Assembly: GCF_023824195.1 (NCBI RefSeq)
Contig: NZ_CP085442.1
Coordinates: 3,076,001 to 3,140,000 of the forward strand
Reading direction: 5' to 3'
DNA: 64,000 bases
Source of the DNA: Priestia megaterium
Lineage (GTDB): Bacteria; Bacillota; Bacilli; Bacillales; Bacillaceae_H
Shown in pieces: positions 42,351 through 43,286 of the stretch. The position numbers and the translations under genes were made by a program. The first letter of the stretch is position 1; every line of letters starts with the position of its first letter. The notes beneath the pieces are model-generated. The model did not search any database. It was not told the DNA's origin and saw only the letters and a program-made list of their open reading frames with translations.

Positions 42351-42452
42351 TCACTTCTCCTCTCTTTCGTCTACTACATGAGACGACCAGCAAATAATTC
42401 CGTACATAGCAGCTGTTAATAGAGCAAGCGTTCCAAGCATGATCATATCCAA
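42351..42452 (-). CDS. Small membrane ORF upstream of kdpF (33 residues)
   Basis: The frame starts with TTG at 42452, six bases after GGAGGG, and reads MDMIMLGTLALLTAAMYGII then CWSSHVVDEREEK. One membrane segment and an acidic/basic charged tail. It ends TGA two bases before the kdpF ATG, so the two are translationally linked. Either TTG or the ATG at 42446 may start it. No such gene is described among standard Kdp components that I know; it may be a second small subunit or a coupling leader. Confidence 0.65.
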   Translation of the reverse strand: MDMIMLGTLALLTAAMYGIICWSSHVVDEREEK

Positions 42453-42741: not shown

Positions 42742-42862
42742 AAACGCTTACGGAGTTAGCTGTCGGATTCGGGTTATGGAAGTAACCCTACTCAGTTAAG
42801 AGATTCACCCCTAGTACATACGTACAAAATATTGGGTCCCCCGCTCATAATTGATTAAGCGT
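42742..42862 (-). promoter_or_regulatory. c-di-AMP riboswitch (ydaO/yuaA type), downstream copy
   Basis: On the minus strand P1 is closed by CGCTTA and TAAGCG. Core blocks seen in order: GGGGGACCCA, AGGGGTGAATCTC, GAGTAGGGTTACTT, ACCCGAATCCGACAGCTAAC and TCCGTAAGCG. These are the conserved blocks of the ydaO class, which senses c-di-AMP. A terminator follows at 42659-42697, so high c-di-AMP (high K+) should stop kdp transcription. A c-di-AMP riboswitch controlling kdp is known in B. thuringiensis. Confidence 0.92.
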
Positions 42863-42886
42863 ATATTTGTTATTTAATTTTTAGAC

Positions 42887-43024
42887 TTAATTATGTTTTT
42901 TACTGCTGCGTTTAAAACTTTGATTAGCTAACGTAGACAAATAGCGGTTTGCTAGATCAAAAGATTGCTGATCGCATATTGCTCGATATTCAATCATTTG
43001 AATCATTTGCTTAGGTAAATGCAT
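42887..43024 (-). CDS. 45-residue ORF lying between two c-di-AMP riboswitches
   Basis: The frame starts ATG at 43024 after AAAGGAG and reads MHLPKQMIQMIEYRAICDQQ, then SFDLANRYLSTLANQSFKR and SSKKHN. It has no membrane segment; the middle looks helical and amphipathic and the C-terminus is basic. It occupies almost the whole gap between the two aptamers on one transcript. Its ribosome-binding site is the 3' arm of a hairpin (43031-43062) just after the upstream aptamer, so its translation is probably gated by c-di-AMP. Function and family are unknown; it could also be a leader whose translation tunes the second switch. Confidence 0.65.
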   Translation of the reverse strand: MHLPKQMIQMIEYRAICDQQSFDLANRYLSTLANQSFKRSSKKHN

Positions 43025-43030
43025 GTTGAC

Positions 43031-43062
43031 GCTCCTTTCGCCTATATTTTGAAAGGAACGCG
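43031..43062 (-). promoter_or_regulatory. RBS-sequestering hairpin after the upstream c-di-AMP aptamer
   Basis: Minus-strand TCCTTTC pairs perfectly with GAAAGGA around an 11-base loop and can extend with CGC/GCG beyond a two-base bulge. The 3' arm is the Shine-Dalgarno of the 45-residue ORF and no T-run follows, so it is a translational, not transcriptional, switch element. Confidence 0.65.
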
Positions 43063-43108
43063 CTATCCGCTATTATAGAAAACGGCCACGATTACACCAT
43101 CCTCTCTC

Positions 43109-43232
43109 TTAACGCTTACGAAGTTAGCTGACGGGTTCGGGTCAAGAAAGTAACCCTACTCAATTATGAGATTCACCCCTAATAATTGGGTCCTCCGCTC
43201 TTTCCCTCTCTTTCAGGAAAGACTCAGCGTTT
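43109..43232 (-). promoter_or_regulatory. c-di-AMP riboswitch (ydaO/yuaA type), upstream copy
   Basis: On the minus strand P1 is closed by AACGCT and AGCGTT. Core blocks: GCGGAGGACCCAA, AGGGGTGAATCTC, GAGTAGGGTTACTTTC, ACCCGAACCCGTCAGCTAAC and TTCGTAAGCG, in the same order as in the downstream copy. A longer P1-proximal hairpin (CTTTCC...GGAAAG) distinguishes it. It begins about 20 bases after the predicted transcription start. Confidence 0.9.
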
Positions 43233-43257
43233 CACTGTGGAACGTTTCATGAGAGTA

Positions 43258-43286
43258 ATCTTACTCCTGTTAAAATTTACTGTCAA
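43258..43286 (-). promoter_or_regulatory. Sigma-A promoter of the riboswitch-kdp transcript
   Basis: Minus strand consensus TTGACA (43286-43281), 17-base spacer, TAAGAT (43263-43258). Predicted start near 43251, directly before the upstream aptamer. No comparably good promoter is visible between the two aptamers, so both probably lie on one RNA. Confidence 0.78.

Follow-up and report, generated by a model that had tools for sequence, protein, structure and literature searches.

The window, i.e., the whole 64,000-nucleotide stretch of Priestia megaterium DNA analyzed here (contig NZ_CP085442.1), contains a kdp operon, encoding a potassium pump, on its minus strand, as are all features of its leader described below. 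Domain searches assigned kdpF (42348–42268, PF09604), kdpA (42249–40582, PF03814), kdpB (40560–38485, P-type ATPase domains, named from its position), and kdpC (38471–37905, PF02669). These genes are followed by a truncated kdpD (37851–36709), in which KdpD and Usp domains were matched and the kinase domain was unmatched, and by a CBS-domain gene (36673–36239, PF00571). The ATG start of kdpF was assigned by reading; the listed 41-aa ORF starts at 42393. Directly 5′ of kdpF lies a 33-codon ORF with a TTG start (42452–42351), which is hydrophobic by eye and matched no family. Look-alikes, also judged by eye, occupy the same site in the genomes G008, G009, G020, and G055.

The leader of this operon consists of a promoter, a first c-di-AMP aptamer, a hairpin holding an SD sequence, a small ORF, a second c-di-AMP aptamer, and an intrinsic terminator. 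An initial annotation had proposed this order of parts ahead of a kdp operon, and the Rfam, folding, terminator, and domain searches bear it out, including the 45-residue ORF between both aptamers (43024–42887, ATG start). The leader structure is real, conserved, and recurrent.

Aptamer 1 (43239–43097, 108.9 bits, E-value 5e-25) and aptamer 2 (42871–42731, 97.4 bits, E-value 8.2e-22) were identified with the Rfam model RF00379, and the gap between the two matches is 225 nt. Both matches span the whole model (1–134 of 134) and score far above the gathering score of 38, in agreement with the earlier claim of two complete ydaO-type aptamers; the coordinates first given for them (43109–43232 and 42742–42862) are the cores of the Rfam matches. 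Both copies thus have the sequence and secondary structure that define this riboswitch class. In the ydaO/yuaA riboswitch, the last hairpin offers its loop for pairing with the 3′ tail. This loop–tail pairing is recovered across 71 aptamers, with a mean score of 14.3 versus a permuted mean of 12.8 (maximum of 200 permutations, 13.3), and loop and tail pair in both window copies. The window aptamers probably bind c-di-AMP. The purine-rich tail of aptamer 1 (43110–43097) can pair, according to folding and tail-pairing scores, either with the last aptamer loop or partly with the anti-SD arm of the hairpin that follows. By reading, the tail of aptamer 2 (GGGAGT) has two possible partners, the last aptamer loop and the terminator on its loop side, and the tail–terminator pairing appears in the window’s best fold without the terminator.

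Aptamer 2 is followed by a strong intrinsic terminator (42694–42659), in which a stem of 14 pairs (42694–42663) precedes a T run. As anticipated in the initial annotation, the downstream aptamer therefore ends in a transcriptional gate (gate 2), and domain matches place kdpFABC after it, with kdpF next in line. According to the parts of PMC6488665 cited here, kdpFABC of Bacillus thuringiensis is down-regulated by a terminator-bearing c-di-AMP riboswitch, and KdpD is truncated in all 12 species possessing both KdpD and the riboswitch. The window leader resembles this system in its aptamer class, in the terminator between aptamer 2 and kdpFABC, and in the truncated kdpD. However, the B. thuringiensis leader, as presented in those parts, has one aptamer, whereas the window leader has two, with the small ORF and the SD hairpin between them.

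A single promoter upstream of both aptamers had also been claimed, and one site was indeed predicted there (43286–43258, TTGACA-17-TAAGAT), with GGAG abutting the −10 element; G008 and G009, two other genomes of the genus, carry identical bases. No other minus-strand promoter-like site was predicted between this site and the terminator, hence none between the aptamers, which is a weak test because four sites were found in the region and 2.8 are expected in shuffles. The terminator search found no terminator between the small ORF and aptamer 2. From the sequence, both aptamers probably lie on one transcript. With one mismatch allowed, GGAGTAAKAT precedes 29 of the 72 aptamers that are single or come first in their leader, versus 1 of 21 located behind another aptamer, and occurs in 26 of 1860 shuffled sequences. 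The longer pattern TTKACA-N13-GGAGTANKAT has 29 matches in 61 whole genomes, of which 24 precede a same-strand c-di-AMP aptamer by 5–115 nt; as a control, the reversed pattern was run and matched once. The other five precede genes without a potassium-related look, one of them encoding a CorA-like protein (names by eye). In the window’s own genome, a like GGAG promoter pattern has two matches, both ahead of c-di-AMP aptamers. On these counts, GGAG directly before the −10 element is a mark of the predicted promoters of c-di-AMP-riboswitch leaders, and a promoter-level regulator or a special promoter type for this regulon is possible.

The small ORF looks like a real, protein-coding gene on the basis of comparison with its relatives. 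Against G009 (50% identity), Ka is 0.41 and Ks is about 1.8, which is near saturation, and conservation over 44 codons amounts to 26 first, 33 second, and 22 third positions. The low Ka relative to Ks and the least conserved third positions argue for selection on the protein. From the G008 ORF (91% identity), that of the window differs at seven sites over 138 nt (Ka 0.046, Ks 0.09), which is not enough to show constraint. A single-sequence prediction gives the product as one helix (pLDDT 91.6), which carries little functional information. The ORF matched no Pfam or NCBIfam family and no plasmid sequence, and its alignment against genome contigs gave no confirmed relative. Among 10 genomes of the genus, three bear KdpA (the window’s, G008, and G009), and all three keep the full layout with the ORF.

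Similar arrangements are found farther away. In G012 and G015, members of another genus of the same family, an aptamer pair 216 nt apart surrounds an ORF 32% identical to that of the window; this pair precedes other genes, and the sole KdpA match is at a different site, preceded by one aptamer. In G324, which belongs to another family, an aptamer pair 480 nt apart encloses a 43-codon ORF and is followed by kdp; the ORF has 37% identity to that of the window in the alignment and ends 15 nt before aptamer 2. Homology of these ORFs to the window ORF is weakly suggested: the window protein alone as query found G008 and G009 and missed G012 and G015, and the G012 and G324 ORFs were members of the profiles that later scored them. 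Outside the profile, a second small-ORF copy of 49 codons, roughly 2.5 kb 5′ of the aptamer pair, was matched in G012 (E 5e-7; L149 2583–2434, minus strand) and in G015 (E 4e-7); Rfam gave no c-di-AMP aptamer beside the G012 copy. Of 29 genomes of its family searched for the small ORF, G324 was the only one to give a match. Weak matches in G050, G056, G071, and G108 look like chance and were rejected.

An 11-bp hairpin (43061–43029) contains the SD sequence of the small ORF (AAAGGAG, 43038–43032) in its 3′ arm, confirming that an RBS-hiding hairpin follows the upstream aptamer (gate 1). The folding energies of this hairpin are −15.0 kcal/mol in the window, −18.2 kcal/mol in G008, and −13.2 kcal/mol in G009, and 5, 0, and 9 of 2000 mononucleotide shuffles, respectively, fold as well. 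Between the window and G008, two pairs are altered on one side with the pairing kept, and the SD of G009, despite its different sequence, is held in a hairpin of similar strength. Opening the SD would cost 8.2, 11.4, and 9.6 kcal/mol in the window, G008, and G009, respectively, in the folding model. Terminator loss at last aptamers is also expensive in the model (11.6–28.4 in seven of eight cases; in the eighth, L185, with a value of 4.9, the sequence was cut at an earlier T run), so that a high SD-opening cost alone is no bar to regulation. In the best fold with an open SD, the aptamer tail pairs with the anti-SD arm in the window and in G008, and this pairing is unused in G009. When the tail–arm pairing was forced, the SD was still mostly paired elsewhere in G009 and partly so in the window and G008. 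In the equilibrium fold, the SD is paired with the aptamer tail either free or locked; ligand control of gate 1 would thus have to be kinetic. By reading, the loop-pairing part and the anti-SD-arm part of the window tail overlap by only about three bases.

A search of the gap found no terminator between aptamer 1 and aptamer 2 of the window. A gate element between aptamer 1 and the small ORF occurs in all six genomes in which the ORF was observed between two aptamers. In G324, a terminator lies after aptamer 1 and ahead of the small ORF, at the place matching the SD hairpin. G012 and G015 carry a terminator there as well (AACAAGG/CCTTGTT, then CCTTTTTT), which in both genomes was identified by reading and in G012 was not listed by the terminator finder. 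This apparent swap of terminator and SD hairpin across lineages is the best indirect evidence for ligand control of gate 1, under which the SD hairpin of the window may stand.

A search of 397 genomes of the order gave KdpA in 58. According to Rfam, the 58 kdp leaders comprise 20 with at least two c-di-AMP aptamers on the same strand, 34 with one, and 4 in which none was found, including L200, for which only 650 nt were covered. Within the 20 tandem leaders, the gap is 48–85 nt in 11, and some pair is separated by 225–1044 nt in the other nine. The nine long gaps hold the small ORF (four genomes), a 92-aa ORF (G020), or an ORF of about 130 residues (G176, G096, G141, and partly G201; grouped by eye), which indicates that the order aptamer, gene, aptamer, kdp recurs. 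The initial annotation knew of no precedent for this order of parts, but that the layout stands alone is unsupported in view of the 20 tandem leaders among 58, the nine of these 20 with a gap of at least 225 nt, and the 77 published doublets reported in the consulted portion of PMC9481103. The leader of G020 (L062 10288–10010, minus strand) is a triple c-di-AMP aptamer leader before kdp, with the 92-aa ORF between aptamers 2 and 3; its product is weakly HPr-like, below curated cut-offs. ORFs of about 130 residues, similar to one another by eye and with no confident family, occur in or just 3′ of c-di-AMP aptamer leaders in L060 (9881–9474, minus strand), L061, L151, L155, and L161.

Doubled c-di-AMP sensors are therefore known already. 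In the sections consulted of the 2022 survey that reported the 77 doublets (PMC9481103), most doublets have a terminator between the aptamers, tandem means that no intervening ORF was observed, and gaps above 300 nt were dropped. The window leader resembles these doublets in having two c-di-AMP aptamers on one leader. Unlike the survey definition, it has a conserved 45-aa ORF in its 225-nt gap and, unlike most of the doublets, its gap is without a terminator. Since an unannotated ORF could pass the no-ORF criterion as worded in those sections, a Priestia leader might be among the 77. The same sections describe bi-mechanism tandem riboswitches, e.g., SAM-II/SAM-V, in which a same-ligand pair places two gate types on one gene. 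The window would share with SAM-II/SAM-V the single ligand and the combination of one transcriptional and one, here putative, translational gate. In SAM-II/SAM-V, as outlined there, the transcriptional gate comes first and both gates act on the same coding region, whereas the window has its putative translational gate in first place, acting on a small gene of its own, and the terminator precedes kdpF. In the open-licence PMC literature, as judged by titles and abstract starts, no recognized ORF between two c-di-AMP aptamers was found. What is new is a pair that seems to guard the small gene ahead of the pump. Same-ligand switches guarding successive genes on one RNA may have been overlooked, as the survey, in its consulted sections (PMC9481103), required no intervening ORF.

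We propose, with about even confidence, that the window carries one potassium-responsive leader in which two serial OFF switches for c-di-AMP guard a gene each. At high c-di-AMP, aptamer 1 would fold and its purine tail would be taken up, so that the SD hairpin would form unopposed and no 45-aa protein would be made. Aptamer 2 would fold likewise, its tail would be unavailable to disrupt the terminator, and transcription would stop before kdpFABC. When c-di-AMP drops, the small protein would be translated and kdpFABC transcribed; the OFF direction is the probable one for both switches. Because the small ORF precedes the terminator, it could also be expressed from terminated RNA and might respond to a c-di-AMP level different from that of the pump. 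That one leader gives two outputs is plausible, and the question of whether a single second messenger can set both from the same transcript could be tested cleanly here. The leader also directs attention to a small protein linked with the control of potassium uptake by c-di-AMP, and this protein may have a role in that uptake. More tentatively, the arrangement may be a cassette gated by c-di-AMP, whose first riboswitch would control a small, helical, so far undescribed protein acting on potassium uptake, so that one signal would set pump and modulator at different thresholds from one RNA, with the first gate swapped between lineages (terminator or SD hairpin) and the gene order kept.

The aptamer pair might instead only steepen kdp control, with the SD hairpin as a fixed brake on the ORF that is not worked by aptamer 1. 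This is how the published doublets are interpreted in the consulted sections of PMC9481103, and both the 11 ORF-less tandem leaders with gaps of 48–85 nt and the SD that stays paired in both tail states of the folding model are consistent with it. However, as aptamer 1 of the window is without a terminator, it is not evident how it could act on kdp by itself, and the protein-level selection on the ORF and the gate element kept before it across lineages also count against this explanation, which we consider rather unlikely. An independent aptamer 2 and kdp, with a promoter of their own and with aptamer 1 serving the small ORF alone, would fit G012 and G015, where the pair with the small ORF is unjoined to kdp. 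In the window, however, the promoter search gave no minus-strand site between the aptamers, the GGAG-type promoter is typical of first or single aptamers rather than of those following another (29/72 versus 1/21), and no terminator was found between the ORF and aptamer 2, which makes two unrelated units highly improbable.

Alternatively, the two aptamers could communicate, if the state of aptamer 1 were passed on by ribosomes translating the small ORF or a tiny ORF at the aptamer 1 tail, with ribosomes near the stop codon hindering the folding of aptamer 2. The ORF stop lies 15 nt before the aptamer 2 match in the window and in G324, and nearer to it or overlapping in G009, G012, and G020. Moreover, a start codon is present at the tail of 18 of 22 non-last aptamers versus 4 of 21 last ones, a count in which one last aptamer without an anchor (L186) was omitted and the single aptamer L157 was taken as last. 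In a wider set, the counts are 19 of 23 non-last aptamers (including L164 at 694, where Rfam gave no aptamer and the pattern match is therefore probably spurious) and 3 of 23 last ones. However, 21 of 55 other single aptamers also have the start codon and the genomes are related, so that the contrast is weak, and about 25 nt separate the window ORF stop from the first helix of aptamer 2. A further point against such a relay is that RNA polymerase in Bacillus presumably runs ahead of the ribosomes, and we regard the relay as improbable.

As the start codon is shared by so many single aptamers, a rule that it marks first-aptamer tails was rejected as unspecific and is kept as an idea only. It would include, as a weak candidate, an 8-codon GTG micro-ORF of the window (43089–43063) that ends at the SD hairpin. 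In the short-gap kdp tandems L179, L180, L182, and L184, the aptamer 1 tail is followed immediately by GTG and a tiny A-rich ORF (e.g., VNIKKEK). Elsewhere in the window, Rfam located tandem T-box leaders and a third one nearby (14315–13834 and 12627–12427, minus strand). Upstream of the kdp leader lies a GC-rich stretch with the complementary parts CTCCTGCGGG and CCCGCAGGAG (about 43560–43455, minus strand), which presumably resembles a dispersed repeat of Bacillus genomes.
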